A stretch of 64,000 nt of DNA from positions 3,823,001-3,887,000 of the forward strand of contig NC_081807.1 of NCBI RefSeq assembly GCF_030704535.1, read 5' to 3'. The position numbers and the translations under genes are program-made. How positions within the stretch are numbered: the stretch's first letter is position 1; the number at the start of each line of letters is the position of its first letter. The notes beneath the pieces are model-generated. The model was given only the letters and a program-made list of their open reading frames with translations, made no database searches and was not told the DNA's origin. The DNA is from Vitis vinifera (lineage: Eukaryota > Streptophyta > Magnoliopsida > Vitales > Vitaceae). Below are positions 3,351 to 25,893 of the stretch, piece by piece.

Positions 3351-3467
3351 TGGTATCAGAGCTTCATATTTTCTGTTGTCCTTGATCTTTCTTGATTCTT
3401 CTTCATCTTTCCTGGTTGATTGTTACTTCACAATGACTGAGGAAGAACATGCTTCTATGGCTAAATA
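3351..3467 (+). mobile_element. Primer-binding site and gag start of a second Copia body
   Basis: Directly after the LTR lies TGGTATCAGAGC (3351-3362), the sequence complementary to the 3' end of initiator-Met tRNA that primes plant Copia elements. A leader of about 70 bp follows, then a gag-like start (Met-Thr-Glu-Glu-Glu-His). Similarity to an element ends near 3467, where AT-rich host-like DNA begins. This order (body, LTR, PBS, gag start) is what unequal recombination between LTRs of neighbouring or sister copies leaves behind. It is a short, broken fossil piece. Confidence 0.72.
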
Positions 3468-4794: not shown

Positions 4795-5003
4795 AAAACC
4801 TGGCCGGTACAAGCTTTTATTAAATCATCATAATACAATTCACACTCCACACTTCAATACTACTTCACACCATTACTCATACAAACCTGAAACATCGATC
4901 TTACTTCTTAGTTCTTACATGTGGCTAGCTTCAGTGCTGATCAACTTATGTGAAAGGCATACATAGACCACTTGTACCTGCTTCAATTATACATGGCTTT
5001 CCC

Positions 5004-5564
5004 TTAGTGGTTATAAACAGAGAGATTTGGCCTTGGTTCAAAGTCATTAACAAATGACTTGTCTCCCTTTGAAGCAACTTCATCGTCATGGTATACTGAG
5101 AGGTTAGGCCCGGGCTCAAAGTCCTTAACAAATGATTTTTCTTCTCCAACTTTACTGTCATCATGGTAAGCCGAGACATTGGGTCTGGGTTCAAAGTCCT
5201 CGGCAAAAGCCTTCTCTACTTTCTGCTCAAAATCCTTTAGAAGCTGATCGGCCTGCTCGTTACTTGCCTCCGTAGCTGTATGGCAGTTGGGGTTCTTGGC
5301 GGAGAGAACGCCTTCGATGGCCTTGGGCATGGGCTGATCCTTCATGGCATCTTTCCAATACTCCCCAGGGTCCTTTCTTGCAGCTATTGTGTTGCCAACC
5401 TGCTCAGAGAAGAGGGAAATATATTAGAACTCGCTGCTACAGAACTAGTATAAACCATATGAAGTCATATCTAAGATCGAGGCCTTGATTTTTCTTGGCC
5501 TATAAGAAATGAAGATTACCAAGACAAGTGAGAGAATAACAAACAAAGCGAAGGAAGACTCCAT
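5004..5564 (-). CDS. Organ-specific protein S2/P4-like (DUF2775), candidate peptide precursor 1
   Basis: Two exons, complement(5004..5399, 5520..5564), give 146 residues. Exon 1 encodes the hydrophobic leader (MESSFALFVILSLVL); a phase-0 GT-AG intron follows, and the leader likely ends after VGNTIAA at residue 22. Then come RKDPGEYWKDAMKDQPMP, the hallmark of the organ-specific (PF10950) family, a spacer with one Cys, and three tandem repeats of 25-26 residues of the form FVxDFEPRPNxSxYHDD. Their Asn-to-Tyr segments are NVSAY (89-93), NLSVY (114-118) and NLSVY (140-144). A TATA box lies about 63 bp upstream of the ATG. The family's classical role is unknown (shoot- or organ-abundant repeat proteins); the repeats plus nearby BURP genes suggest a RiPP precursor, which is inference. 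Confidence 0.9.
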
Positions 5565-5626
5565 GTTCTCAATCAATTAAACACTTAGGTTACCACTGTG
5601 TGATTTGCATCAAGGCTGCTCTTACT

Positions 5627-5633
5627 ATTTATA
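5627..5633 (-). promoter_or_regulatory. TATA box of the DUF2775 gene at 5004-5564
   Basis: TATAAAT on the minus strand, about 63 bp before the ATG, inside TATAAATAGTAAG. The same TATAAATAGTAAG block precedes the paralogue at 11316-11871, so it is conserved between duplicates. Confidence 0.65.
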
Positions 5634-7833
5634 CACAGAAAAAGTACAAGAAAACAAAAAATGTTAATTAAGGATTTGAAAATTTACTATTCCACGTTGA
5701 TGATGAATAATGCAGGATGATATTAATAATGCCTTTGTGATCAAAACATTTTCACATTGAGATAAAAAATAAAAAAAAATAGTTTTACTATAGAACTGAA
5801 CCTCTTTTTGGAACATACCGATAAGACATTAGTACCAATATGGGTTCCTTGCTTTTGTTTCCAAGTCTCACTCATTCGTATCAAATATGAGATCCCATCA
5901 TTTCTTATCTTGATCTTATCTCTTTGTATCTTAATTAATTCCAATCGAGATGAAAGATAAGGTCTTATTACAATATTGAATGACATTTTTGTTTAAAATA
6001 ATCTTACGAGCACAAATAGGGTTTCATGTCTTTATTTTCAAGCTCTCATTCATTTGTATCATATATGAGATCTCATTATTTTGTATCTTGATTCCATCTG
6101 TTATTCTCGAAAAACTATTGTCTAGGAGGGTAACACTCAAAGGGGATTGAATGGGTATATTTAAAAATATTATGATAAAAGAGTTTACATCAAATATTTA
6201 ACAAAGGACAATTAAGTTATTGTTTAAAAAGATTCATAAATCATAATAAAAAAAAACAAAAAACAAAACTGTCCACAATCATATTTGTGTGATTTTGTTA
6301 ACTGATATGAATGTGGTTCCACCAATTTCGTAATAGTGGGGTTATTGCTTCGACAACATGATCCTATCTCAGCTAATAGCATTTAAGAGATACAATACTG
6401 TTGTGTCCATTCGAGGATGGAAAGTAGCATTTTTGAAATGGAAGAGAGATTTTCCATGATCGTCAACCACATTTTTTTTTAAGCCCATTTCCCTTTCTCC
6501 GCCCCCACTTACTATTTTCATGATTGCTTTCGTTAATAATGGAAGAGAGATTTTCCATGATCGTCTTGTTTTCTAGCATATAGGGTTGTCATGCCCTTCA
6601 GCTTTTTCGTTTCCTTCCATATGGACCATACCTAAACGAGACAAGAGAATCCCAAGCAAAAAATATTATAAAGGTTGTTGGTATGTTGTAAGTTTGTAAC
6701 ATCTCAAACAATAACATACCATGGTGGTATGGTACAATCTTCTAGTGAGATTAACAAACATTTATATTTACAACAAAAATAAAAAAGTTAAAATTTTATA
6801 TTATAAGAATATTTTAGAAAGATTATAATATAATTTGAAGTTTCTGAAATCAAAATTTCTCAGATTCACATTGATTAGGTTTTCTTATGTGTTTTTAATA
6901 ATATGCAAAAGTATAAATGTGTAAAAAATAAAATTAAGTTGAATTTTATAGTAACCTCTGCTAAAAAGTGAAAAGAAAAAAGATAACTTCTCACGTCTAT
7001 TCTATCATATTCATGGGTAGACTTGGTAAAGACCAATGCTCTAACTAACCATAATTTGCTAGAAAAGTTCGAGCCAAAACCCTATTTAAGCATTATATTA
7101 TATGATTAATTCAATGTTGTGTAGACAGTTTATGATGGTATTTGTTTTTTAATTTAATGTTAAATACAATTTGCTTTCAAATTTTAGATCGTTTGTTTTT
7201 AACTTTTTTTATTTACTTGTTACTTATTTTTTAAAAATTTTTATTGAATAGAAAAAGTCAAAATATTTAATTTTTTGTTAAATGATAAAAATATCTTTTT
7301 GAAACAACCAAAACACAATTTCAACGCATCCTTCACCCTTTTAATACGAAATATTTAACATAAATAAAATAATAAAAAGAATAACTAAATATTTAATAGT
7401 ATTAAGTTGTATTTAAAATTAAGTTAAATTAAATTTTATTTAGATTTAAGTGAAAACAAACAAACACCATCTAAGAGCATGACAAACCCAAGTAATGTTG
7501 AAACATTTCTCTTAAGAATTTTTCAACTAATTGTTCAAAATATTCAGGCTAAAGCCCTCTATGAGGCTAGATATGTGACCAACCCTTTGCTTTCATGCAA
7601 ACCAAGGTCCCCACGTAATGCTAAAATATTACCTGTAGGAAACGAGCTCTCAAACCAAATTTTCTACATAGAATATTGGCACCAGGCCAACTTTAGGATC
7701 AAGTGGATCAGAATCAGATTATGTTATTTTTCCTTATTTCTAATCCATCATTTGCTCAAGGACAAGAGCTCAACTTTCCTCTTAGATTTCATAGGAATGA
7801 TTTTGGATCGAGGGAATGAAGAAAAATATTAAG

Positions 7834-8156
7834 GCTATGTTTGGCTTTCAGAAAATTTGAGGGAAAATGCAAAGAAAATAAAATATAAAGAAAAAGTAAA
7901 AGAAAATAAAAGTGAAGGAAAATAAAAAATAAATGAAAAGTCAATAAAGTATTTTTATTTGCTATTTTAAACTCATTTTACTTATTTTAACTCAACGATT
8001 TAAAAATTAAATAATTTAAAAATATATAAGTTTTTAACCAATTTTAATTATATTTTATTTTCTTTGATATTTTTTATAAGACAATCAAACATGAAAAAAA
8101 TTATTTTTTTTATAGTTTTTTTCTTTTCTTAGTATTTTTCAAGAACCAAACATAAC
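7834..8156. mobile_element. MITE, 'CTATGTTTGG' terminal-repeat family
   Basis: The left end GCTATGTTTGGCTTTCAGAA and the right end (reverse complement GTTATGTTTGGTTCTTGAAA) form an imperfect inverted terminal repeat around a non-coding core rich in GAAAATAAAA. Related copies lie at 49490-49760 (opposite orientation) and as a cluster at 56460-57560. Superfamily is not assigned because the target duplication is unclear. Confidence 0.6.
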
Positions 8157-8351
8157 AGGAAATCCAATCTCGTGTTATTAAAAATAACAAATAAATAAAT
8201 AAAATAAAAGTGTTTGTTTGATAAACCAATTTGATAACTTAATTGAAATCATTAAATAAATTAAGCGCATTTGGTAAAATAACTTAAAAGTATGACTTAA
8301 AGTTAATACCAACTTTAAGTAATAAGTAAAAATAATCAATTTATTATTAAG

Positions 8352-8439
8352 TTCACATCTTTATTTTATATTTTTATCCTCATTTACCTTAATTATTCAC
8401 ATCTTTATTTTATATTTTTATCATCATTTACCTTAATTA
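8352..8439. repeat. Direct tandem repeat, period 44 bp, two copies
   Basis: TTCACATCTTTATTTTATAT followed by TTTTTATCxTCATTTACCTT appears at 8352 and again at 8396 with one base difference. It sits inside the AT-rich MITE-like stretch at 8210-8680. Confidence 0.8.
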
Positions 8440-10079
8440 TCTCTACAATCTCATTTGATGTTCCATGACCTCCACTGTTATTTAACCTCCTTCACTCTAA
8501 TTATAATTTATAAGGATGAATATATCAATTTAATAATTTAAAATATATTTTAAATTAATTTTATCAAACAACCTTTATACCAATAATAAGTAAAAATTGA
8601 GTAATAAATTTTAAGTTAACAATTTAAGTATAATTTAACTTGAATTCAACTTAAATAATAAGTATTAAGTTTTACGCTCTCTAAATAATCAATATATTTC
8701 TTAATTTCCTTCTATTTTTTCCTTTTATTTATTTTCCCTCAAACATTTTAAAATTCAAATGTCACATGAATAGTTGTTTTTATTTACCAATGGCTTTCCT
8801 AAAGAAATGCGTGGACCCATAATTTCTTGGGCTGTCCATTTACTCAAGAGTCAAGAAATATTCTTGAAGATTTGATGGCTTGTCAACCTTATTTTACTGC
8901 CCTGTTTTTTCTACGTGTTTGCACGCTCAATATTTTAGTAACGTGTTAACATAAGGGCAATTAAAAAATGCTTCTAAATCTTGTGGAAATCTAGGTAAAA
9001 TCTTCAACAATCTTCATTTATCATTAAAAAAAAATAGTAAAAACTTCTGTATAAAATAACAATATAGAAACTCTTACATTATCCTATCAAAATAAGTTTT
9101 TATGAATTTTTGTATTTTATATAAAAGTTATTTTATATAATATTTTTTAAAATAAAAAACAATAAATACATCCATATAGCACTTCACTAAAAATTTTAAC
9201 AATAATTGTTTACGATTTGAAGATTTTCATTGTAATTTTCTTAAATAATCATTTACTCTCATTAAAGCTAATATTGGAATTCATAAATTATTTGAAGTTT
9301 GCTTTTTCTTAGTTTTGGTGAAATTGTATTATTTCTAATAAAGGTTTTTACATTAGATAAATACTTTGATTGACCCTCTCATGAATTAAATTATGTAAGT
9401 AGTCTCTTTGTTGTTATATATATATATATATGTTATGTACTTCATTTAAGATGGTAGGAGTCGAACTTGTGGAGAGCGATGTAACTCTTTTATATAATTA
9501 ATGATGAATTTACCCCCATTATATATTTAACGCCTTAAGTTTAAAGCTTTGTTTTTTTAGACAATACAGACATAATTGAAAAATCTTTTTTGAGAATTTT
9601 ACCATTGTGATTCTTCTTGTTTCTTTCAATTTATTAATTTTTTAGTATTAATACATTATATGAATGTAGAAATTATATTAATCGTGGAAACACGTAATTT
9701 TTTTTTTATCTCTTTCATATATATATATATATATTGCTTCATTTCAATTTCAATGAAATAATGATCCCTACATTCATCTCAAATTATTCAATAGATTGGA
9801 TCTACCAACGTAACCAACCCCACTTCCTCCTATTATTAGATGAAAAAGATAGGTGTTCCATTATTATTTTTGTTTTCTAGCTTATAAAGCTGGCATGTCC
9901 TTGTTTTCTAGCTATTCACTTGGTATTTTTCTAATCTTCTATCTTTTGGAGGGGTGGCAACAAACCGAATCCATATAAAATTAGAAGAAAAATAAACAAT
10001 GCTTTTTATAATTGTTTGAAATGATCACGGGATGGGATTGTTGTCGACCATGTTCTAACCGAACTTTGTCTTGTTTGCT

Positions 10080-10535
10080 GAAAATAATTTTTGAGAATCA
10101 TCCTTTAATATTTTGTAGAACAAATATTTTATTTGAAAATTTGAAATGTTTTTAATTTATTTTTAATATTTTTAGATATATTTTAAAAATAATTTTTATA
10201 TCAAGCATTTTATTTTTAATCATTTTTTATATTTATATAATTATTTTTTTAAAATAACTTTTAAAAAATAAATGAAAAACAACTTAAAATAACTAAAAGA
10301 TGTTTTTTGAAAATAATTTTTGAGAATCATTCTCAAATATTTTATTTGAGAACTTGAAATGTTTTTAACTTATTTTTAAAATTTTTAAATATAATTTTTA
10401 TGTCAAGTGTTTTATCTTTAATCATTTTTCATAGTTATATATATTTTTTTAAATAGTTCTTAAAAAACAAACGAAAACAACTTAAAACAACTAAAAGATA
10501 TTTTTTTAAAATACTTTTTCTATCTTGAGGAATAG
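10080..10535 (+). repeat. Tandem pair of a foldback MITE family
   Basis: Two diverged copies of about 228 bp follow each other (10080-10308, 10309-10535), both starting GAAAATAATTTTTGAGAATC and containing TTTTATxTTTAATCATTTTT. Related sequences occur at 13935-14235 and 14270-14480 (opposite strand), 19305-19640, 19700-19975 (opposite strand) and 42990-43310, making this the commonest small repeat of the window. Confidence 0.65.
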
Positions 10536-11315
10536 AAAACAAAAAATAATTTTTTGGTTGTCTAATCTATGTTTTTGTTTTTGTATTTTTTTGGGAAAAT
10601 GGAATGTTGTTCTAAAAAACTGTTGCCAAAGAGGATCTTAGTTGCTAGAAAATTTATCAAATTATGTTACATTAACTCACTGATATGGAGACCAAGCTGG
10701 TTGCACCTAAGAGTTAATGACAAACTATTGCTTCTGTGAATAGTTTATATCTTAATTTCCAAAGGGTTAGGGAAACACAATAGTCATCATCTATCTTCCC
10801 TTTGTGCTCCTCATTGTTTTTCCAAAATTTGAGTGTTCCTTTCTCGGGAAATTGATTCATCTTTTTCTTCCATCCTTATCATCATTGTCGTTTTGGATTG
10901 GGGTAAAACTCACAGCTTTCTTCTTGATTGGGCATCAAGAAGTGGTTGAGATCTTGCATGGCATTGATTCTAAGTATATATGTTCTTTACTTAAAGAAGG
11001 CGTGTAGCTAAAGTATGAAGATGCTAGTTAAGTGCTCTGAGAGAAGATTTATAGTATTCAATTATTGTTCTGTACTATGGAATTTCTCTAGGATCAACTT
11101 GGATAATCCAAAAAACCCACATCCAACAAATGAAAAAAGCAAAAACCCACATCCTGGATAATCATCAAGATCTCCGAAAGTCATAATCATTTCTAGGTAT
11201 TTAATTAATATAGATAGTATGGAGAATACCAACTTGTAATGAGTCAGAAACCAGGCACAACTTTTATTAAATCATCTCACACACTTCACATCAATTCCAA
11301 TACAAGCATCTTCGC

Positions 11316-11871
11316 TTACTCATTGTAAGCAGAAATATTAGGCCTAGGTTCATAGTCACCCACAAATGGCTTCTCTTCTTTGGTAGCACCTTTATCATGG
11401 TAGGCTGAGATATTAGTCCAGGGCTCAAGGTCCTTAACAAATGATTTCTCTTCTGTGAGTTTAGCATCCTCATCATCATAAACCCAGAAAACCTTCTCTT
11501 TTTTAGGCTCAAAACCCTTGACAACATCATCCCCATTTCTTGCCTCTGTAGTTGTCTGACAGTTGGGTTTCTTGCTTGAGAGAGAAGATGATTGATCTTC
11601 AGGGAGAAGGCCTTGGATTGCTTTTGGCATGGGCTCATCCTTCATAACATCTCTCCAGTATTCCCCGGGCTCTTTTCTTCCACCTATTGCATTGCCCGCC
11701 TTCTCACAAATTAAGAGAAAAATATGTTAGAACTTGTAAGAATTATTAAACCATACAAATTCATATTCAAAATCTTCCTGAGTTCATAATCAATTGGTTT
11801 CAGTTTTGCCTCTTAGAAATGCTCACCAAGAGAAGTGAGAAAATAGTGAAGAAAGCCAAGGAAGAAGCCAT
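11316..11871 (-). CDS. Organ-specific protein S2/P4-like (DUF2775), candidate peptide precursor 2
   Basis: Exons complement(11316..11699, 11827..11871) give 142 residues. Exon 1 is the leader MASSLAFFTIFSLLL, followed by a phase-0 intron; the mature part begins near RKEPGEYWRDVMKDEPMP (from residue 23). The spacer carries a single Cys. The first repeat is degenerate (GFEPKKEKVFWVYDDED); two clear repeats follow with NISAY at 111-115 and 136-140. It is a tandem paralogue of the gene at 5004-5564, with the same leader length, intron position and TATA motif. The worn first repeat suggests core peptides are gained and lost between duplicates. Function in the classic literature is unknown; a precursor role is inferred. 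Confidence 0.9.
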
Positions 11872-11930
11872 ATCCTCAATCTGAAAACACTAACTTTGTT
11901 TCTGTTATTTGAATTGAGACCCCACTTACT

Positions 11931-11939
11931 ATTTATATA
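11931..11939 (-). promoter_or_regulatory. TATA box of the DUF2775 gene at 11316-11871
   Basis: TATATAAAT on the minus strand about 60 bp before the ATG, embedded in TATAAATAGTAAG as in the paralogue near 5627. Confidence 0.65.
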
Positions 11940-13815
11940 GATAGATAGATAAGCAGTACAAGAAAACCAAACATATAGCTAAGAAGGATTAACCTTAAGG
12001 TTCAAGTTGGCCTTCAATAATGCATATTGATCATATCATGATGTGCAATTCTTGTTGGCCGGCCTTCAATAATGCATTGAAGATATCAACACTGGTGGTG
12101 GGCAAATGATGTGAAGATTAAGTGTAAGAGCCATGACAAGACCAAGTAATGTTAAAACATTCTCGTATGAATTTTTCAACTAAATATTAGTAGAAGAATT
12201 GAGGTTAGAAAGTGTTCTTGTTTTTAACTTCAGAAAATAGGTAATGTGCGGCTAACTTATGGGTTACAATTTTCCCATCATGTCAAAGTCTCGATATTCT
12301 AACCCAAACCCGACACAATAATAATAGTGTTAATAATATAAACTCAAATACTACCTAATTACTAGACATGTAACATATCGTATAACTCATTTAATTCATT
12401 TAATAATTAAAACATCCTACTTAATAATCGATTGAATTAAATTTTGTATATATCTATATGATTAATATTTCAAAAAACAATTTTCACAAAAATAATTACT
12501 TCTTGATTCCATTAGAATTGTGACAAGTAATATGGAATAGAGAAAAGTGGGAAGCAAATCAAAATCTCAATGTTATTAAAAATATAAAGAAAAATCAAAT
12601 AAGATAAAGGTTAGTAAAAAACCTTATAAGTTTTAAAATTCTTTGCTAAAAAGGGAAATAAATAAATCAAAAAAAGCACGTCAAATAATATATATATATA
12701 TACCATGACAAACACGTTCCATGTCTCACATGAATGATTACTTTTATAAATCCAATTATTTTTACTAAAAATATTAAAATATATATATAACAGAGACCCA
12801 ATCACTGGATATATTCTTGAAGATTTGACGACTTACCAACCATGTTTTGTGCCCTTGTTTTTTCCAAGAGTTTGCAAGAAAAATGTTTGAGTCACACATC
12901 AACATATGCCTAATTAAAAATATAGCGGATGGGATTCGAGATCTCGTGGAAATCTAAAGCAAAATCTTTATTCATATTTATGATTAAAAAAATTGTTTGG
13001 ATTTGAAGTATCATGGAAAGAAAAGGTAAATTCTTTGGCACCACTAATTTATTATTAAAAAACTTCCCTTGCAATTTTCTTGGACTATGAATAGTCTCCT
13101 TGGATTTCACTTCATAGTTATTAGTTCAGCCTTATACCGTTGCAGTTGAGGAAGATGATGTGAAATTAGAAATTTTTTTATTTCCATGAGAGAAAATAAT
13201 GATTTTATAGTTTGTAATATCAATAGAATTTCAAGAAAATGTTAAAGTATTGTGTAATGGTACTTATAAAGTCTAAATTTGAAAGATTAATCATTGAATG
13301 ATGATGCAGATAAATAAGATTAAGATATAAAGATACAAACAAATAGAATTGGTGTGTTACACATGTGGGAGAATATAAAATATCTTTTCAATATTTAACA
13401 AAAAGGGTGTCGGTCGATTGATGGAGTCTTGAATCTCAATCAAATAATGATTCAAGAATTCATTGAATGAAGTAACAAACTTTTGGATAAAATAATTATC
13501 CCTCCCTCGATCTGAAATCATTCCTCCAAATTAATCAATAGGTTGGGTCTGCCCACCCCACATCATGTTCCTGTTATTGGATGCGCACCCTTTTACTTAA
13601 AAAATATTAGTGTTCCATTATTGTTTTTGTTTTCTAGCAATTCATCGCAGATTTTTAATCCTCTCTCTTTCGAATGGGTGGCAGCAGGCCCGAATCCAGA
13701 GAGAATCAGAAGCAAATACCCATGTCTTTCATAATTGTTAGAAATTATCGAGGGATGGTCTGCTTGTAGACCATGCTTTCACTGAACCTGAATTGCTAGA
13801 GAAATTATCAAACAG

Positions 13816-15469
13816 CCATGCCTAGCCCATCTAATCCTAAAATTTGCTTCTGTGCCCCACCCAGCTAGCAGTAGAGATGGGTTGGTTTGGCCTCGGATTG
13901 GTGCTTCACTGTTCAGCTTGTTTGGAGTTCAGAAGCAACGGATTGTTTTATAACTATTTTAAAAAATGGTTTTTTCATTTTAAAAAGGAAAACAAAAAGA
14001 TATTTTTTAATTATTTTCATTTATTTTATGAAAATCATTTTAAAAAATTATTATACAAATACGAAAAATGATTAAAAACAAAATTCTACATATAAAAGTT
14101 AAAAAACAAGTTAAAAACGTTTTTAAGTTCTCAAATAAACCTTTTAATTTTTTAAAATTATTCTTAAAAATTATTTTTCAGAACCATTTTTTAAATATAT
14201 TTTTTTTCAGAACAAAAAAAATAATAAAACACATTTAACAACTAAAAATCAATAAATAAAAGGGTTTTTAGAGAACATGTTTTAGTTATTTCACTTACTT
14301 TTGAAGAGCTATTTTAAAAAAATAATTATACAAATATAAATAATAATTAAAAGTAAAGTACATATATAAAAATTATTTTAAAATATAAAAAAAATTAAAA
14401 TATTTCATATTCTCAAATAGACATTTATCCTACAAAACATAAGAATATGGTTTTCAAAACTGTTGTTCATAACTATTTTCAATAATAATTATCGAATATG
14501 GTCTAAAATTTGTAGGTTTCACATTTAAATTCCTTAACTTTTGCATAGTTAACAGGATATATACTCATCCTTGAAGTTCATAGTTGATGGGATTAACATT
14601 TTCAAAGGTTATTTTCTTATCAATCCTCTCAAAGTCATGCTTACATTTGAAATTTGACGCTTACCAATCTCATCTTTCTCATCTAGTTTTGTCAATATAT
14701 TTGCTAAGCAGCAGAACACCATGTTGGAGTGGAATATTAATGTATATTTAATTAAAACAAAAGTTTATTTCAGAGTAATTTTGCTAAAAGGGTTTTTATT
14801 TGCATTATTTTTTCAAAGTGATTTTAAAAATGTGATTTCTAAAAGTGATTCTTGGGATTTTTTAAAGTATGTATATTAAGAAAAACCTTTAGAGCTTGTT
14901 TGACAATATTTTTAGAAAAACCCTTCTAATATATAAAGCACTTCAGAAGAAAATTCGAACACTTTATAAAATTTAAAAAACATTTTTAAATAGTTTAAAA
15001 AATTATTTATGATATTTTATGAGAAAACAATTGATAAACTATTTTTCCTAAAATACTTTAATTAAAAACACTTTTAATAGAAACAACGTTGCTGTCAAAA
15101 GTATTCTCACAGAGGAAATCTAAATAAAATCTTCACAAGTAAAACTATTCAATTGTAATTTAAAAACCCCACTTTCTGTTTCCTTGAATTATCAAAAGCT
15201 TCCGTGGATTTAATTTCATCTCGTAGAATGAGTGGATTGTTTAAGTTTTGCCTAATTGGCTTTGGCCTAGGTGATCAAAGGCATCATTTCTTTGAGGAAG
15301 TCGTCTGACTTCAACTCCTTACTACTCTCAGATGTAATATGAATTTGCCCTTGTGGTATTCGATTGAATGCTCCTTTGTTTGCTGACTAGTTCTGTTGGT
15401 CTCTTTGTTGTCTTACCAGAAGGAGAAGATAAAGAAGAAGAAGAAAGGATTTCCCAGAAAAGAAGAAAA
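13816..15469. other. Intergenic upstream of the first BURP gene
   Basis: AT-rich. Holds reverse-oriented copies of the foldback MITE family (about 13935-14235 and 14270-14480). The open frames near 13844-14075 run over these repeats and are not genes. The purine-rich leader just before 15470 (AGAAGAAGAAGAAAGG) is probably the 5' UTR of the BURP gene. Confidence 0.5.
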
Positions 15470-16846
15470 ATGAACCTGAGATTTTCCTTTTGGAGCATCT
15501 TCCTTCACTTTCTGGCTGTGATGGTAACCTCTCCACTCTTCAATTTATTCATATAGCATGCATACATCTTTGCAGTCTCTTGGAACTTCTATGCCCCTGC
15601 AGTTCAAGACGATGATGATGATTAAATACTGGTATAATTGTTATTATTTGATTGACATAATCTGTGGAAGCTGGAAATTTTGATGTTCATGGTAAAGTAC
15701 AAAGATTTTAGCTGGTAATATCATTTTCCATTTGAATGGAAATATAAGTAGTTCTAAATTTCATCATAATGGATGACCATTTTTAGTTTTCTTTTCAAGG
15801 GTTTTCGCATGGTTTTAGACAAATTTTCTTAGAAACCTTGTTTACTAAGTCATGTTACAGATCTCCATATTCTAAGCTGCAGACATTTCTCCCCATTTTT
15901 GTAGTGTTTCCATGGAAGTGGAGCCAGGGAGATGCCTAGAGAGGAGTTGATGGTGGCTCCAAAATTTCCCATGGATGATTTCCCAGAAGGGGTTAATGTA
16001 TTGCAACTCCATAGCATGGATGGAAGTGAGAAAAAGGATGGTGGGCAACATGCCATGGAGGACAGATTGCATGGTCATGATAAGCGAGGCGAAGAAACCC
16101 GAAAAAGGGAAGACACAGAGCATGTTCATGGTCATTCATCATCCCACATGGATCACTTGGACCCTTCAGTTGTTGTCTTCTTCACTATGAAGGATCTGAA
16201 GGTTGGGAAAACAATGCCCATCTACTTTGCCAAAACGGACCCTGCTTCTTCTCCTCGCATGTTACCTAAAGAAGAAGCTGATTCCATTCCTTTCTCATTT
16301 GCCCAACTCCCACACCTCCTTGAATTCTTCTCCTTTTCTCAAGGCTCCCCCCAAGCCAGAGCCATGGAAAATACACTTAGAGAATGTGGACTTAAGCCCA
16401 TCAGAGGAGAGACCAAGTTCTGTGCTACTTCCCTAGAATCCTTGCTTGATTTTGTGCATAGCATCTTTGGGCTGGAGTCCCATTTCCAAGTCTTAACAAC
16501 TTCCTATCTCACAAAGTCAAGTACCCTTTTCCAAAACTACACCTTCTTGGAAGTGCCTACAGAGATACCAGCTCCCAAAATGGTAGCTTGTCATACTATG
16601 CCCTACCCTTATGCAATTTTCTACTGCCATTCCCAAGTGAGTGAGAACAAGGTGTTTAAGGTGTCACTAGAAGGCCAAAATGGAGATAGGGTGGAAGCCT
16701 TTGCTGTTTGCCATTTGGATACCTCTGCCTGGAGCCGTGATCATGTGTCGTTCCGTGTGCTCGGGATCGAGCCTGGGACATCCCCTGTGTGTCATTTCTT
16801 CCCTGCATCCAACCTCATATGGGTTCCGAGGCCTACTCTGAACTAG
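15470..16846 (+). CDS. BURP-domain protein 1 (BNM2/USP-like; candidate stand-alone peptide cyclase)
   Basis: Exons 15470..15523 and 15905..16846 give 331 residues. Exon 1 encodes 18 residues of a secretory leader (MNLRFSFWSIFLHFLAVM), a phase-0 intron follows, and the leader ends within CFHGSGA. Residues 28-105 are a variable, His-rich linker with HGH motifs and no core-like repeat. The BURP domain (PF03181) runs from about 110 to 327 and has all four Cys-His pairs at 247/248, 259/260, 287/288 and 314/315, spaced CH-X10-CH-X26-CH-X25-CH. These residues form the copper sites in BURP peptide cyclases. It lies about 1 kb from a convergent DUF2775 gene (17839-18443). Classical naming would be BNM2- or USP-like seed/stress protein; the cyclase role is inferred from domain and neighbour. 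Confidence 0.93.
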
Positions 16847-17838
16847 TCATGTAACTGCAGTGTAATCACTGAAGCTATTACTATGATCTGGTATTCCACT
16901 TGGTGTTTGTTTTTCAACTGAAGGGCTCATAAATATAGAATAAATGAGTAGGTTTTGAATGTTGCTATATAAATAAGGGGTCTATTCAGAAGGTCAAGCA
17001 ATCAATAGTGACTCACCAGGTTTACTACTACAAGTTTTTATCAGTGGTAACATCTCATGCTGAATAGTTTTGTGCAAGAAATTTCTCTGCTTCTTGATTT
17101 TCAGTTTCTTTGATGAATCATTTTATGTCAACAGGCAGAAAATTGAATCAATTTCCTAGATTCTAGATCTTGAATCAGAACTTCAAAATCTTCCTGGATT
17201 CTAGATTGAAATCAGAGCTAACATTCTAGGAAATCTTTCTTCCATAGTCCAGTAACCTTTGCATTTGGACATTCCTTGACTCAGATCTAAAAATTTGGGA
17301 GTTGGGTACTTGATAAAAGTTACTAGAAATTTTCCAGGAATATGGAAAGAGAATCTGTAACTGTAAGGAAAACAGAGTGATTTTGGAAATAAAGATGAAA
17401 TTTGGTGATGAAACCAGGGCAATCTCTTTGGGGTTTCTTATTTCAACACCACACCCTTCAGAGGCAAAGATCCAACTGAAAAGAAAATGAAAACTGAAAG
17501 GGGAAAAATCTAGTGTTTTCTTGAATTTTGATGAGAAAATTTAACAGGGACAGGGTAATCTTCCATTGCTGGTATGGATTCACCAAACTGTCACTATTGT
17601 ATGTATATATCAGACCCATCTCTGTGCTTCAACACCATATACAGAATGTTTTTGTAAGCTTTTCTCAGTAGTTAACCTTTTCTACTATTATATTTTCTAG
17701 TCTTTTCAAGACATCCAAACACTTAAACCAGCCATAACCAACAACAGACAGAAAATCCAAAAACTGAAAGAGAAAAAAAATATTCAGACTTCCAACAGCA
17801 AACAGGCTAGTGGATTAATTGATGTACAAGCATGAACC
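16847..17838. other. Convergent spacer between BURP 1 and its DUF2775 partner
   Basis: About 1 kb shared by the two 3' ends. An AATAAA-like signal (GAATAAATGAG near 16938) may end the BURP transcript. Nothing else is recognisable. Confidence 0.45.
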
Positions 17839-18443
17839 CTAGTTATTATACTCTTTCTGATCATGACCATGCTTATGAAAATTCACCCTCAGGTTTACAG
17901 GCTCCACGAAGAACTTCTCTTTCTTCAGCTCAGGCTTCATCTCCACACCAAGAGGCTTCTCTCCCTTGCGCTCAACATGGCCATGATATATAATATTATT
18001 AGGCCTGGCATCAAAATCTCTAACAAAATGGTCCATTTTTCTTGCCTTTGATGAGAATGATGCTGGATCTTGATGAATAAAGCCTTTGATTGCTTCTGGC
18101 ATAGGTTGGCCTTTCATTATGCTCTTCCAGTAGTCTCCCATGTCCTTCCTTCCATCAATAAGCCCTGAAAACTGATCAAAACAAACAAGAATATACAAGA
18201 ATACTGTTATTCATATCAGATTCCTCCAAAACTCAACACAAAAAGGTCTAGCTAGTTCTGAGAAAATGAAAATGAAAATGAAAATTTATTGAATGATTTT
18301 GAACTGGGAATTTCAGTGCTGGGGAGTATGAGAACTGGGCATGCACACGTTAGATTTTGCTAGCATGTATGTTGTTTGTTTGATGAGAAAATGCTTACCA
18401 AGAGGAGCAAGAAAGAAATGAAGAAAGGAAAGGTGAATTTCAT
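17839..18443 (-). CDS. Organ-specific protein (DUF2775), candidate peptide precursor 3
   Basis: Exons complement(17839..18171, 18399..18443) give 125 residues: leader exon MKFTFPFFISFLLLL, phase-0 intron, FSGLIDG, then RKDMGDYWKSIMKGQPMP, the family signature. One good repeat follows: FVRDFDARPN then NIIY (74-77) and HGHVE. A second, worn repeat has NLRVNF at 108-113, with Phe where Tyr is expected, and ends in His-rich FHKHGHDQ. Compared with the genes at 5-12 kb the core changes from N-x-S-x-Y-H-D-D to N-I-I-Y-H-G-H. The acceptor at 18172 was chosen over a nearby alternative because it keeps 7 residues before the RKD motif, as in all paralogues. Convergent with BURP 1. Confidence 0.88.
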
Positions 18444-18514
18444 CTGTTTGCTGACTAATTGACTCATCCTTGGATTTGCTTAGCCTGTATGGTGGACTTT
18501 GCCTCTCCTACTTA

Positions 18515-18523
18515 TTATATATA
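18515..18523 (-). promoter_or_regulatory. TATA box of the DUF2775 gene at 17839-18443
   Basis: TATATATAA on the minus strand about 72 bp before the ATG, followed by TAAG as in the paralogues. Confidence 0.55.
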
Positions 18524-19304
18524 GACCAATACCCATGACATGGAAATTTATTTTCTTATTATTTTTATTTTTTAATAACAAAAAATATATATAAACTATA
18601 TGATCATCTTAATTTGAAACACGGAGTTTACACGGACTCCTGAATTTGAATATTTTAATTATTTCAAATATTTAATATAAAATAAAAGTATTCAAATCCA
18701 ATTGTCCAAAAGTCAAGAAGAACCCTCTTATTTTTTCTTTACCTGCACGTGATTTCTAATTTTTCAAATATTATTTTAATATAATTTTGATAAGCAAACA
18801 AAGAAAGATAAAAAGAAAACCACTAAACAAGTGATGTTGGGCTGTCAACTGTTTGTTGGTAGCGCAAAGGAGGTGGGTTGGGAAGTGTTTTTATAGTTTG
18901 ATAATTTATTTTGATAAATAATATTTTTTTTGAGAAATTATTTGAAAAATAAAGCGTTTTTTGAAAATATTTTTTATTTTTTTTGGGACTGTTTTGAAGA
19001 TTAAAAATAAAATATTATGTGTAAAAGTTATTTTTAATAAATATTTTATAAGGTAAGAAACAAATTAAAAACATTTCAAGTTTTCAAAATAAATTTTTAT
19101 TTTAGAAAACATTAAAAGTGTTTTTAAAAACTGTTCTAAGAAAAATTTTAAAAATGTTATCAAAAGTATTAAAAAAAAAAAAAACATGTTTTTAAGATAA
19201 ACTCTAAAAGTGTATTTGACTATTGTTTTCAAAAACTATTTCTTGTTCTTCAAAACAAAAAATGATAAAAACATATTTGACAACCAGAAAATATAAAATT
19301 AAGG

Positions 19305-19975
19305 CATGTTTAGTAATTGTTTTAGAAAATAATTTAAAAAAATATTTTTTGAGAATAATTTTTAAAAATTATTTTCTGATTTTTGTATAACAAAAATCTG
19401 TTTAAAAACCTAAAATTTTTTAAGCAATTTTTAATATTTTTAAATTTGTTTTAAAAATAAATTTTATATCTAGTATTTTATTTTTAATCATTCTACATGT
19501 ATATACAATTATTTCTTAAAACAACCCTCAAAAAATAAGTGAAAATAATATAAAATAATTAAAAAATATTCTCTAAAAATACCTTATTTTTTGTTCTTAA
19601 GAATAAAAAATGGAAAATAATTTTTTATTATTAAACATGTTTTTTGTATTTTTTATTTTGGAAAACAAAAAACTATTCTAAAAACCAATTTTGAAATGAA
19701 TCTTTATTTTTTGTTCTTAAAAACAGAAAATATAACGTTTTCATATAATATTTTTTAATTATTTTCACTTATTTTCTAATAACTATTTTAAAAAATAATC
19801 ATACAAATATATAAAATAATTAAAAATAAAACATTATATATATAAATAAATTTTAAAACATGAAAAATAAGATAAGAATATTTTGAATTCCCAAATTAAC
19901 AAATAGTTTTTAAAAAATAATTTTTAAAATCTATTTTTAAGAATTATTATCGTTATTAAATTATTAAACAACGTC
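19305..19975. repeat. Head-to-head pair of foldback MITE copies
   Basis: A plus-oriented copy (about 19305-19640) is followed by a minus-oriented copy (about 19700-19975) of the family described at 10080-10535, so the two arms could pair as a long imperfect inverted repeat. Confidence 0.5.
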
Positions 19976-21599
19976 TAAATTTTGTATCTTGTGATTTGCC
20001 ATCATGCATCATTCTATATTTTTCAAGGAAGTCAACGTTGATAGACAACAAGGGCTCATGAGTCATGAACACCCAAAAATAGTTATTAAATTTTTAGTAT
20101 ATAGTTCCTAAAAGGTGGACATGCCCTTTTACCAACTCTCTAATTTTTCCTTATCCCATTTTTTCCCTTCTGGTGTCATATGATAATCTCTAATTTTATT
20201 ATATATTAAAAATGATAAATAAAAAAAAAAAAAAACCTTTTAAATAATGTTTTTTTTCTCTCATTCAACCCTATTTTCCATTCAACACTGTTTTGTCATC
20301 TCCACGTACCATATCCATAAATTTAGTACAATCTTGATTAAATGATTGCCACAACTAAACTATTTTACTAATATTTTAATATATAGTTTACTATAACCTG
20401 ACAACTCTTTAATTAATTTTTTTTTTCCCCTTGCATGATCATATAGTATAAAATAATTCATAAGTTGAGTTGGGGTGATGTCACATCGTCATTTAACATT
20501 AAATAATATATAATTATTAAATGAATTTTGATATTAATTATTTGGTAGAAGACATTACAAAGAGAGAGGTTATATACTCCTATTTGCTCCATCTTTTATG
20601 TTGTTAATAAATTTTAATATTTTGATCTTTTTGTTTGTTTTAATATTTTTTTTATTTTGATTTAGCGTATTTAAAAAGAATGTCGTAAACTTATTTTTTA
20701 TTTTACTCTCCCTTTTTTCTCCTCTAATTTTTAGTTTAAGGTTCATAAAAAGAATTATCTATTGAAAAAGTACCAATTAAGCCATGTCATATATGCATTA
20801 AGATTTCAGTTTAGGGAGTCTAGGGGTCCTCCCCTACTAAATTAAAAAAACTCTTCTAGAAGGCAATTATTTTTATAGGAATTAGAGAATTTTTAAGCAC
20901 TTATATCTAAAATATTTTTACCTAAAATACTTTAAAAAATAAATCTTATAAGCGAAATAAATTTATATCTAATTAATATTTTTTTATTTTAATTTATTAT
21001 TTACACTTTTTTTCAATAATCTAAATTATTTTTATGCATTTTCAATTTTGGAAAATGGAAGTTAGATTGGTAGCTTTTTCAACAGTTTAGTTTAGTTTTT
21101 TCGTTTCTTTTTTTTTTTTTTTTTTGGCTGATTTTTCTACGTTAATTAATTTTTTTGTATATTTATTTAATAGGCTGATTTTTATTGTCAACTTTGAATG
21201 GTGGAGAAGGAAGTTGGTTAGGTAGCTTTTCAGTAGCTTAATTTTTTTCCTTTAATTGGATGGCAGACAAAAAGAAGATACTAATCACGTTGTGTGAAAG
21301 TTGACTTTGGAGCAATATCTCGAAACGAACCACAGGATCAATGTCTATGGCCCACATTTGTCTGTCATCAACAGTGATTAAAAAGCCTTGTCACACACGT
21401 ATTCTCTCTTACCCTTTTTAAGTGAAGGGACAGCATACCAATCCATTTGTTGCTTTATCATGCATGTAGACATTTTTAGTGGCCACAATTCATGTTGACT
21501 CAAATTCATCAATTAGATTAGTAAAGAACATGTTCAATAGCAAAACTAGCTGATCAAGATGTCCAATAATCCAACTTATTGGATCAAAAATTTAACTAG

Positions 21600-22260
21600 A
21601 ATAAATAAATAAATTGTTTTTTACTCATGATAGAAGTCTCAAAATTTTTGTTCCCGATCCTGTTTATTTACGTTGGATTGGTATTATTAGACTTCAATAT
21701 TACCTCCTCAACATGAGGCATTTGTGTATTGCTCTCACGATTTTTGCTCTGATACCAATTATTGGATCAGACTTAATCTATATCATCCAAAAATTAATTG
21801 ATATTTAAGCATTTTATGATTTTGGTATCATATTTTATAAGTCTAACAGTATAAAAACTACATTTGAATAATTCATCTAAACTTAAGATCAAATAAAACT
21901 ACGACATCCCAACTGTCTATACTTTTAACCTTTTTATCTTAAAACTAATTGTTATGTTAATATAAGTAAGTCACGTTAAATCTAAACTTGTATTCGAGAG
22001 ATGGTTATCCATACGTCGATAATGGGTGTATGGGTTCTCAAGAAGAGATGAGCAATGGTGGTCCCTTAGACTGCTCAGATCCACAAATGAATGAAAAGTT
22101 AGATCTACATTGGATCTCACTTAAATCTATCTTCTATAATATTTGACAAAACACTCTATAAGTATAAAATAAAAGTTGTCATTAGGATTGATCCATTCAG
22201 GCTTAAGATCGAGTAGCATTATTACACCCTCATCAATCTAGATAATTAAAATCTAGTATT
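21600..22260 (-). mobile_element. Possible old LTR-element remnant
   Basis: GCTCTGATACCA at 21746-21757 is exactly the reverse complement of the TGGTATCAGAGC primer-binding site used by plant LTR elements. The following region would then be the LTR of a minus-oriented element. No protein domain is recognisable, and the TG/CA border is not clear. A fossil at best; the match may be chance. Confidence 0.3.
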
Positions 22261-23783
22261 GACCAAACAAATAAATTAAGAATAGCCAAAGCAGAAAAAA
22301 AAAAAAAAAAAAGTCAACTTCTTGTGTTGATCATAATATATATACAAATGTCTGGTTGTAATGCTTTTGTTTCCATTTGGGTCATGCATGGTGTCATTGT
22401 TTTCTAGTGAAGTTCTTATATAGGTTGATGCGAGGTTTGGGGAAGGACAAAAACAGGTTATTATTTTTCTTTTATTTGTCACAGAAGTGGCAATCTATAG
22501 GTATGCATGCCTTCTTTATTATGTCAATCTGCCCTAACATATGATAATGAATTTTAAATGTAGGAGAGGACATGTGACCCTTTGGGAAAGGAGGGGCCTT
22601 CTTTTGATTGGTTGTGTAGAAAAATAAGAAGAAAAAAGGAAATACCATAGAACTAGAGAAAATATTTATTCTTCCTTTTTTGTTAGTCTAAAATATTTGT
22701 ATTATTTTTTTAAAAGTTAAGTTCCATTTTCAAATATTTTATTTTAATTATAATATATATAAACTTTAATTTCTAGGGAGGTGCTACGAGATGACAATTT
22801 ATTGTATAGAAAAATAAATTCGTGAACTTATTGATTGACCATCGATGTAAATTCATCGACCGTTTTTATATTTCAAAAAAATTCAAGCCCATTCAAAATT
22901 TCAGATTTAAATTTTTTTTTTTTTTTTTAAAATGGTCTCCTTAACCTAGCTAATTAATTCACATTGTTGGTCTATTTCCTACCACTTAAATCTGAGATTC
23001 AACCATGTTGTATTATAATTTTTATCATCTTCTCAAACTTCATGTGCCTGCTAACATAAGATTCTTTAAATCCGTTTGACTAAGCTGTCTGCTTTTGTAA
23101 AAAATAAAAAATAAAAGCCCATAGTTTTGAATGGAACAGTTGGAAATGTGCAATGAACCAGATGCAACAATCAAAAAAGGGTTTCTTAGATTCTCACTTC
23201 ACATGGAGGAGACAAAACATACAAAGAAAAACCGAAAGTTTAATTTTTTTATTTTATTTTTTTATTAATTTTGGTCCATTTTTCTACCTATTGGGTGGAA
23301 GACAGGAAATGTAAGTGAAAAGAAACAATATATTGTATAATATTGAATAGTATGAAAAACGTTTGGTTGTACTTCATGCAGGAATGATCAAAAAGTAGAG
23401 TTCCTACTTCCATCCACACCACTCTCTTTTCAGTTGCTTTAATCATTTCAACCTTTGAAAATTCTTCAGTGTTGCCCATTCTACTTTGGAATATTTGATT
23501 CATCTTCTTTCCTTTTTTTTTTTTTTTTTTAAATTAAATTGTATAAAAATTTAAAAATCACTACAGGGATGTAAGTCAAACTTTTGCTTCTTATTATTCT
23601 AATGATAACATCAACAGTTCAATAAGTCTTCCATAATTATTATTTTTATTCACCAAAAAAAAACAAAAAAAAGAAAAAAGAAAGAGAAGCTCCATGCGCT
23701 TATCCTAGTGTAGTTCACATTCCTCAACTCGTTTTGTTGACATTTTTCTTAAGCAGAAGATCGACGAAGAGGTAAAAGGAGAG

Positions 23784-24778
23784 ATGGGTCTTGGATTTTC
23801 TTCATCATGGAGCCTCAGCTTCTGTGTTCTGCTTGTTTTAATGGTATTCTCTAAATTTTTCCAGTTTGTTTCCATGAAGTTTGAGATTATCTAGAGTTGT
23901 TTCACCTCATCAAGCACCTTTTATTGAGCAGTTTTGGTTAGTGCTTTGATCAAACACATCAATCTAAGCTTTTACTATTGATTCAATTCCAGTCTGCAGA
24001 AGCCAGCAAAGGGGAATACAGTCTGCAGGAGCATGAAGATGGAGGTGAAGAAGCCATGGCTAGAAAGCATATCCATACTCATATGGACATGTCCATGCGT
24101 ATATTCTTCACAATAACTGAACTGAAGGTTGGGAAAAGGATACCTGTTTACTTCTCCAAGAGAGACCCTGCTACCTCTCCTCATCTGCTGCCTAGAGAAG
24201 AAGTTGAGTCCATCCCCTTCTCATCAGCCCAACTCCCATACCTTCTTCAGTTCTTCGGATTTTCTCAAGGTTCTCCACAGGCCATAGCCATGGAGAACAC
24301 ACTCAGACACTGTGAGACTGAGCCCATTGAAGGAGAGACCAAGTCATGCGTGACATCCTTAGAATCCATGCTTGATTTTTCCCAGAAAATATTCGGATTG
24401 AAGGCCAGTTTTGAAGTTATAAGCACTAAGCTTGGAGAGAAGACAACCAGTCTCCTGCAAAACTATACCATCCTGAAATTGCCCAAGCCCATCTCGGCTC
24501 CCAAAATGGTGGCCTGCCATACCTTGCCCTACCCTTATGCAGTTTTCTACTGTCACTTCCAAGAGGGTGAGAACAAGGTGTTTGAGGTTTCACTTGGGGG
24601 GGAGAATGGAGATAGAGTGGAAGCTGTTGCTGTTTGCCACATGGATACCTCTCAGTGGAACCAAGATCATGTGTCGTTTCGCTTGCTGGGAGTCCAACCA
24701 GGAGCCTCTCCGGTGTGCCATTTCTTCCCAGCAGATAACCTCATTTGGGTTCCTTCACCAGCCTTAATTCAGGACTAA
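23784..24778 (+). CDS. BURP-domain protein 2 (BNM2/USP-like; candidate stand-alone peptide cyclase)
   Basis: Exons 23784..23843 and 23993..24778 give 281 residues. Exon 1 (MGLGFSSSWSLSFCVLLVLM) and SAEA from exon 2 make the secretory leader; the intron is phase 0 and only 149 bp. The linker before the BURP domain is short, about 35 residues, with HIHTHMDM and no repeated core. The BURP domain has Cys-His pairs at 195/196, 207/208, 235/236 and 262/263 with X10, X26 and X25 spacing, identical to BURP 1, and ends LIWVPSPALIQD. It is a tandem paralogue of the gene at 15470-16846 with the linker shortened by some 50 residues. A convergent DUF2775 gene starts 0.7 kb downstream (25500-25893). Confidence 0.93.
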
Positions 24779-25499
24779 TAATTTGATTTGTGATAGTGAT
24801 TGTATGCTTCTTTATATTGGTCATGTCCCACACCCTTGAACTAAGTAATTGAATCATATTTTACATGTTTGTGTTGCATACTGAAGCATGAATCAGTCTT
24901 ATTATTGTGCATAGGGATGTCTCGGTTTGAGCTCTCTATTGTGCTCTGAGCTACCTGATCAGCTTGTAAGGATGGAGTTATATGGTAAATTCATAAGGGT
25001 TTATAGACACATCACCCTTGAAAAAAAAACTTATGTATTATATAACAAGTTTGTCCTTATTATATTTTTAATCCTCGACTAGACCTGACCAGACCTCAAT
25101 CGTAATTGAGAAAAGAGGAACTTCATTATTGTAATCCTTCTCCTTCATTTAATTAATAGATTCTGAGCGTTAATGTCGACTTTCATAGACAAACATCACA
25201 TTCATCGTCAAACCACGTAAACAACTTCTTATCTTTTCTTTATTTTTGTTAGTGTGATTTGGTTGACAGATTGGTGAGTTCTAACACACACAAAACATTT
25301 ACCAACAAGATTAGAGTTGATTTTCTTCATAGCCCGGCCAGGAAGGTATTATTAAAGAATCAATCATTTATATATTTTCAACAACAGAGCACACAAACAA
25401 ACTACTTGGAAATTCTTGGGCTGATCTCTATATATTATGAATACATACATCAGCTGTTTTCTTTCTGCTTCAAGTCCCTGACAATTACAGGCTAGCTAG
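24779..25499. other. Convergent spacer between BURP 2 and its DUF2775 partner
   Basis: About 0.7 kb holding the two 3' ends. The 78-codon frame at 25259-25495 has no recognisable feature. Confidence 0.45.
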
Positions 25500-25893
25500 C
25501 TACCCTTCTTTAGGCTCAACATGGCCGTGATATATTATACCATTAGGCCTGCTGTCGAAATCCTTAACAAAATGGTCCCTTTCTCTTGCCCCACTACAAG
25601 ATGTATGACAATTTTCCTGGGAAACAAACGAAAAATCCTGATCATCAACAAGCTCTTTAACTGCTTCTGGCATGGGCTGGTCCTTCATCATGCCCTTCCA
25701 GTAGTATTCTCCTGGGCTCTCTCTTCCATCAATGATGCCGACAAGCTGATCATCATCCAGGAATCAAAAGAATAATGTAAAAACTAATACAAGATGCCTG
25801 AACAAACCTGTAAAATAAAGAGAATATATATGAAAATTAAATGCTTACCAATAGAAGGGAAAAGGAAACTAGAATCAAGACTATAGATTTCAT
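25500..25893 (-). CDS. Organ-specific protein (DUF2775), short candidate peptide precursor 4
   Basis: Exons complement(25500..25745, 25849..25893) give 96 residues, the shortest of the four. Leader exon MKSIVLILVSFSLLL, phase-0 intron, LVGIIDG, then RESPGEYYWKGMMKDQPMP, with an extra Tyr in the family motif. Two Cys lie in the spacer. A single repeat is kept, FVKDFDSRPN then GIIY (84-87), HGHVEPKEG and stop, so the protein ends just after one core. It pairs convergently with BURP 2. A TATA-like TATATTA lies at 25943-25949. The likely donor GTAAGC and the intron position match the other three genes. Confidence 0.88.

Follow-up and report, generated by a model that had tools for sequence, protein, structure and literature searches.

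In split-burpitide systems, a class of ribosomally synthesized and post-translationally modified peptides (RiPPs), precursor and BURP cyclase are encoded by separate genes, and DUF2775 proteins have already been proposed in print as such precursors beside BURP genes (PMC11991032, PMC12186524; these papers, PMC12871766 and PMC4199669 are cited from the available part of their text). The ST and SST proteins were proposed to be cyclopeptide alkaloid precursors, with an IIYH consensus in 194 SST sequences from 120 species (PMC11991032), and stand-alone BURP proteins are apparent in 89% of eudicots, often next to putative precursors (PMC12186524). Here we analyze a 64,000-nucleotide stretch of the Vitis vinifera genome (contig NC_081807.1, here C3, C3:3823001-3887000; hereafter the window), in which four DUF2775 genes (A1 to A4) lie together with two stand-alone BURP genes (B1 and B2). 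We consider it probable (about 0.72) that this locus is a split-burpitide system from which peptides with a ring through the tyrosine oxygen are released. The kind of system is already known; what is added here is the grapevine locus, its completeness, its two cyclase kinds and a VFWVY unit. The function for organ-specific proteins that the initial annotation saw in this locus is not a novelty; it was proposed by Lima 2023 (as cited in PMC11991032) and in PMC11991032 itself. Among the papers listed in a literature search, no title concerned a grape burpitide; Lima 2023 or supplements might list the grape genes.

Among the described systems, ZjuBURP and ZjuPrec-FPIY of Ziziphus jujuba (PMC12871766) resemble the grapevine locus in that a stand-alone BNM2-type BURP lies beside a repeat precursor with four-residue cores ending in Tyr. 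ZjuBURP forms a 14-membered ring to core residue 2 of FPIY in the lotusine A pathway, and a similar ring is predicted for grape. ZjuPrec carries 14 predicted cores, whereas the grapevine genes have one to three usual units each, and the Ziziphus product is finished by a decarboxylase and an N-methyltransferase encoded on other chromosomes, with no counterpart in ten grape neighbour frames. CamB1 with CamA1 and CamA2 (Ceanothus) and ArbB2 with ArbA2 (Coffea) share with grape a Phe anchor among charged residues (Ile in CamA2), a Pro four residues after the anchor and a Tyr-ended core (PMC12186524); the CamA1-ILLY frame and the His spacing of ArbB2 recur in grape as well. The distance from anchor to Tyr is 11 in CamA and ArbA2, in contrast to 9 in grape, except for the VFWVY unit (11, without the Pro). 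In Arabidopsis, SST1 adjoins and is co-expressed with USPL1 (z 14.1; PMC11991032), a protein placed in the BNM2 family (PMC4199669). This locus and the SST/ST-BURP loci of Medicago are like the grapevine one in the SST gene adjoining a BNM2-family BURP, the same DUF2775 family and the IIYH motif (PMC11991032), whereas the grapevine array contains both ST and SST genes, two BURP kinds and all PF10950 matches of its genome. The peanut enzyme AhyBURP (8SY2/8SY3), a fused USP-type cyclase, has the same fold and four CH pairs as the grapevine BURPs; it differs from B1 and B2 in that its substrate is fused to the enzyme (PMC12186524) and in lacking a Pro five residues after the first His.

Six genes at one grapevine locus

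PF10950 (DUF2775) was detected by Pfam in A1 to A4 (E values of 7e-43, 1.5e-47, 5.1e-10 and 5.6e-12), in agreement with the four genes initially annotated, and PF03181 in B1 and B2 (3.4e-81 and 7.6e-81). The gene order is A1, A2, B1, A3, B2, A4, with all precursors on the minus strand and both BURP genes on the plus strand. All six genes consist of two exons, a short first one (45, 54 or 60 bases) being followed by a single GT-AG intron, and the same layout was reported for SST genes (PMC11991032). A1 (5004..5564, exons 5520-5564 and 5004-5399, 146 aa) and A2 (11316..11871, exons 11827-11871 and 11316-11699, 142 aa) are of the ST type, with Ser two residues before Tyr. A3 (17839..18443, exons 18399-18443 and 17839-18171, 125 aa) and A4 (25500..25893, exons 25849-25893 and 25500-25745, 96 aa) are of the SST type, with Ile-Ile-Tyr-His. 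B1 (15470..16846, exons 15470-15523 and 15905-16846, 331 aa) is a stand-alone BNM2-type BURP and putative cyclase, with 98% identity to a protein annotated as BNM2A-like in V. riparia, and B2 (23784..24778, exons 23784-23843 and 23993-24778, 281 aa) is a second one that adjoins A4 tail to tail. The traits given for ST/SST proteins in PMC11991032 are all found, namely the N-terminal region (R-x-YW-x-M-x-P-x-P), one intron near the 5' end and a repeat (EFEPRPxxxxY) or IIYH region. Judging from their hydrophobic first exons, precursors and BURPs would be secreted.

A six-frame profile search of the whole genome (495,616,077 bases on 21 contigs) placed all eight PF10950 matches within 44 kb (C3:3804328-3848715). 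Diverged relatives below the reach of this profile exist left of the window, so others may be present elsewhere in the genome. BURP matches numbered 33 genome-wide and comprised a cluster on contig C4, single places on C11, C17 and C13 (a fragment), two on C1 and, on C3, B1 and B2 only; 19 grape BURP genes on chromosomes 1, 3, 4, 11 and 17, 13 of them on chromosome 4, were reported previously (PMC4199669). As about 0.175% of the genome is situated no more than 50 kb from one of the six BURP places, one randomly placed precursor locus would lie there with a chance of ~0.002. When 16 grape BURPs (B1, B2 and 14 others that were stop-free with a near-complete domain) were placed on a tree with 14 relatives, B1 and B2 were the only grape proteins to join the BNM2-type group (16 rows, including named BNM2A/USPL1 proteins; support 98/97), a type to which ZjuBURP also belongs (PMC12871766). 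The other grape BURPs fall elsewhere, 11 from C4 and C11 (93/90) and three from C1 and C17 (100/100), on a tree in which, according to tool warnings, long branches meet at deep joins and the bootstrap had not fully settled. Taken together, the genome search and the tree indicate that BNM2-type BURPs and DUF2775 genes coincide in one grape locus, precursor and cyclase genes standing side by side.

Both BURPs read CHx10CHx26CHx25CHx8W, which bears out the four Cys-His pairs first noticed in them. All 122 aligned BURPs retain these eight Cys and His letters, and 86 of them, B1 and B2 included, also fit the strict spacing pattern with the final Trp. The His spacing of ArbB2 (12/28/27) is likewise kept in both proteins, and residues of B1 and B2 correspond by spacing to its Met and Pro pocket. 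A pattern scan upstream of the BURP domain gave no core-like unit in B1 or B2, as had been claimed, and one in 122 BURPs scanned (row P0103); B1 and B2 as fused burpitides were ruled out on this ground. Fold comparisons did not bring out a competing fold. A stretch close to SSHMDHMDPS is kept immediately ahead of the domain in B1 and in the majority of the 37 BURPs aligned, and in part in B2; it is possibly involved in copper handling.

Units, cores and register of the precursors

The usual units are DFEPRPNVSAY, DFEPGPNLSVY and DFEPRPNLSVY in A1, DLEPWTNISAY and DYEPRPNISAY in A2, DFDARPNNIIYHGH in A3 and DFDSRPNGIIYHGH in A4. The motif D-F-(E/D)-x-R-P-N, as it was originally formulated, holds exactly for four of these seven units (the first and third of A1 and those of A3 and A4), whereas the second A1 unit has GP and the A2 units read DLEPWTN and DYEPRPN. 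The original list of repeats also omitted GFEPKKEKVFWVY in A2 and a decayed unit in A3. This second A3 repeat, FFVEPVNLRVNFHKHGH (window 17839-18171), has Phe at the place of the core Tyr.

The precursors are separate from the BURPs and show a Phe among charged residues followed by a core ending in Tyr. The cores would best be taken as the 4-mers GIIY, NIIY, VSAY, LSVY and ISAY; tyrosine-ended cores, as initially annotated, are thus retained, those of A3 and A4 being better taken as 4-mers flanked by N and H than as 5-mers of the N-L-S-V-Y kind. Pentapeptides are also mentioned for these precursors (PMC11991032). In the alignment, an anchor with Pro four residues on is common to ArbA2, CamA1, CamA2, A1, A3 and A4, and the stretch from Pro to core spans one residue in grape units and two to three in ArbA2, CamA1 and CamA2. 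This shared Phe-to-Pro register softens the view that a spacing of 9 might exclude the grape peptides. The frame of A3 and A4, N-XXXY-HG (for instance N-GIIY-HG), equals the frame N-ILLY-HG of CamA1, the core of which corresponds to the released alkaloid frangulanine (PMC12186524).

The search with A3 and A4 returned 33 proteins, 28 of which contain a total of 31 units. Ile stands two residues before Tyr in 25/31 of them, the residue three before Tyr is of ten kinds, and a few units are ST-like (Opuntia rows). Among the best 120 of 205 proteins found with A1 and A2, 119 contain 369 units, with Ser or Thr two before Tyr in 348. The Ile-x-Tyr and Ser-x-Tyr anchors are largely fixed, and the residue preceding them is variable.

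The further unit of A2, GFEPKKEKVFWVY (GFEPKKEK-VFWVY; 11478..11516, minus strand), with the candidate core VFWVY, has a Phe-to-Tyr distance of 11, the same as the ArbA2 unit FESKPGSFLWGY, which it resembles. It is without the Pro at anchor+4 and has Lys where ArbA2 has Ser just before the core. For ArbB2, a Pro-to-Leu change leaves about 65% activity, and much activity is lost on changing the pre-core Ser (PMC12186524). The unit is unchanged in five database rows (P0155, P0157, P0212, P0168 and P0253), V. vinifera, V. riparia and V. rotundifolia among these. In a more distant row (P0167), three of eight pre-core residues are altered and VFWVY is kept, as it is in both A2-like copies left of the window. 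Beyond the rows with this unit, the pattern used found a spacing of 11 in one of the 153 PF10950 rows (P0135).

BURP kinds with their proposed precursor pairing and mechanism

B2 belongs to a group of 12 of the 122 BURP rows (SH-aLRT 99) that includes second copies from Liquidambar, Nyssa, Malania, Cornus, Ilex and Carya, plus Ulmus, and in which B2 and some other members were flagged as long branches. The group recurs on the 30-row grape BURP tree (seven rows, 99/95), and a group of five persists (99/97) when the flagged rows except B2 and Malania1 are left out. A grape-only tandem duplication of B1 and B2 was rejected: a tree in which B2 was held with grape-family B1 rows had a log-likelihood lower by 27.8 (p-AU 0.002, which is generous because the 26 rows were hand-chosen after earlier trees). 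On these trees, B2 represents an old kind of its own, retained by several eudicots together with the B1 kind, a term used here for the remaining BURP rows, which are not themselves a supported group. Both kinds are present in Nyssa, Cornus, Ilex, Carya, Liquidambar and Malania; in Carya they carry the locus tags 05G063700 and 05G063900, and in Ilex they share one 1.07-Mb contig with two ST proteins. Only two columns passed the threshold for fixed differences between B2-kind and other BURPs, and therefore no specificity model is claimed.

Gene neighbours were read by hand from tables covering the best 120 of 713 BURPs, all 33 SST-search and the best 120 of 205 ST-search proteins. Assemblies were judged by locus tags or contigs below 3 Mb, cases that share only a chromosome-size contig (Cornus, Dillenia, Durio, Malania and Abrus, for example) not being counted. 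As to the eudicot survey suggested at the outset, among the matches listed 11 of 16 judged assemblies pair a precursor with a BURP, and Juglans regia, Carya, Tripterygium, Mucuna and Anisodus acutangulus do not. An ST gene lies beside a B1-kind BURP (tags at most three apart) in Nyssa, Rhododendron, Craigia, Pterospermum, Reevesia and Diplodiscus and shares a contig with one in two Corchorus species, Sesbania and Ilex, while Psidium has an SST gene with a BURP on a 2.7-Mb contig.

One BURP kind may serve ST precursors (xSxY) and the other SST precursors (xIIY). The link between the B2 kind and SST draws on the adjacency of B2 and A4 in grape and, weakly, on a shared 97-Mb contig in Malania, and Arabidopsis SST1-USPL1 would back it if USPL1 is of the B2 kind. 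Against a strict pairing, SST genes of Abrus and Psidium share a contig with a BURP outside the B2 group. Our broadest proposal is speculative and held only tentatively: core eudicots would have inherited two pairs, B1 kind with ST and B2 kind with SST, the near-fixed IIY would reflect an internal small molecule common to them, perhaps with a signalling role, and not a defence alkaloid particular to one lineage, and grapevine would have both pairs in one array plus an added arabipeptin-like VFWVY.

For the split-burpitide system we propose that the DUF2775 proteins enter the secretory path and that the neighbouring BNM2-type BURP would bind the Phe of the D-F-x-x-x-P segment, placing the residues after it at the four-His copper site. 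With O2, the Tyr phenol oxygen would be joined to the side chain two residues earlier, that is, to Ile in xIIY, giving a 14-membered ring, or, least surely, to Ser in the ST type. Proteolysis near the Asn preceding the four-residue core and near the His following it would then free a small ring peptide. The ring closure first suggested, at the first Ile of X-I-I-Y, would involve core residue 2 and fits, by analogy, what CamB1 (ILLY) and ZjuBURP (FPIY) do.

Several points weigh against this reading. Phe-to-Tyr is 9 for 402/578 tyrosines, compared with 11 in ArbA2 and CamA, the substrates that were reconstituted, and substrate binding may thus differ. Among the proteins listed, Asn precedes the 4-mer in 16/31 SST-search and 270/371 ST-search units and His follows it in 25/31 and 109/371, respectively, which makes the cutting frame weak for ST. 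Precursors with S/TxY are common yet fit no known molecule (PMC11250218), and with Ile or Val for the core Leu, ArbB2 gave a smaller yield of a product whose linkage is unknown (PMC12186524). Foldseek gives a moderate global fit (TM 0.43 by query, 0.62-0.65 by target, rmsd 7-8), and fold likeness says nothing of activity; the neighbour count rests on the matches listed, with B1 as bait. The initial interpretation of the locus as a split-burpitide cassette is supported in part. It agrees with most of the sequence comparisons made, those of the BNM2-type BURPs, the ArbB2-like His spacing and pocket residues and the Phe-x3-Pro register, and is weakened by a Phe-to-Tyr distance two residues shorter than in proven substrates and by Ser/Thr cores without a known product.

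We regard it as unlikely that DUF2775 proteins serve as secreted components of the wall or vacuole through the repeats themselves, the BURPs modifying the wall or being inherited neighbours and no ring peptide being made. This would agree with the spacing unlike that of proven substrates, with the accumulation of SST1 protein in the Arabidopsis root vascular cambium and with the statement in the available part of PMC11991032 that no Ser/Thr-type product has been isolated so far. The largely fixed Ile-x-Tyr and Ser-x-Tyr anchors behind a variable residue, the recurrence of precursor-BURP pairs across eudicots among the matches listed and the eight invariant Cys and His letters argue against it. 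Accumulating SST1 protein would also be in keeping with a case in which the BURPs cross-linked the repeats and the rings remained in the protein, in a stabilizing or surface-binding role, and a single core per mature SST protein of 40 to 114 residues (PMC11991032) would mean a poor metabolite yield. With the A3 and A4 frame equal to that of CamA1 and its released product, we hold this to be distinctly less probable still.

Cores of the Ser/Thr and IIY types occur widely among eudicots. Since grapevine has all its PF10950 matches and both BNM2-type BURPs in one locus, it offers a compact test bed, in which a single deletion or the co-expression of six genes could decide whether DUF2775 proteins make ring peptides and to what use the plant puts them.

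Remnants and other BURP genes around the locus

The array extends to the left of the window, where it includes an intact ST gene with three NVSVY cores (C3:3804322-3804882), a split A2-like copy (C3:3809321-3810620), an A2-like copy with a stop replacing a core Tyr (C3:3816840-3817398) and a degenerate N-part (about C3:3801232-3801630). A diverged gene with a single DATIY core followed by H has the usual exon layout (C3:3796263-3796709 and a first exon read by eye); the PF10950 search had detected neither this gene nor a fragment with NTLAY units (C3:3794394-3794549). Exon 1 of B1 is present in a further, lone copy (C3:3821031-3821087), for which no second exon was found. That the grape locus is a mostly duplicated, broken remnant now making little or nothing is very improbable, for all these split, stop-bearing and fragmentary copies, given that the four precursors and both BURPs of the window and the fifth ST gene are intact and that each of A1 to A4 has an identical or nearly identical counterpart among V. 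vinifera database entries. A2 is identical throughout to P0155; A1 differs from P0154 in two residues, one of them in a core, and A4 from P0122 in two residues that leave the core unaffected. The sole difference between A3 and P0121, the start of which is longer, is over their shared length the first core residue (N or S).

Self-comparison indicated that parts of the ST section were copied at about 95% identity. Two intact ST copies are separated by three silent and five amino-acid changes, three of the latter in cores and none of these at Asn, Ser or Tyr. Just after the lone B1 exon lies a retroelement (C3:3821332-3826464, reaching window position 3464) with flanking repeats of about 390 bases that are 95.7% alike; it is copia-like by reading of its frames, and Pfam on one short frame gave nothing.

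Ten neighbour frames, eight in the window and two in the left flank, hand-picked and not exhaustive, were compared with Pfam. Matches were to LRR, Clp protease and DUF7086, with mediator below the cut-off and five frames without a match; no oxygenase or methyltransferase that could serve in tailoring was among them.

On contig C4 (C4:3443626-3473480), four BURP frames (L023, L025, L027 and L028) carry 10, 10, 13 and 18 Y(D)A(V)Y units in tandem repeats such as GSYDAVYGNPKKQGDAAPVT ahead of the BURP domain, which is the layout of fused burpitide precursors. These are probably the repeats described as a motif occurring more than ten times in VvBURP13/14 (Matus 2014, PMC4199669).

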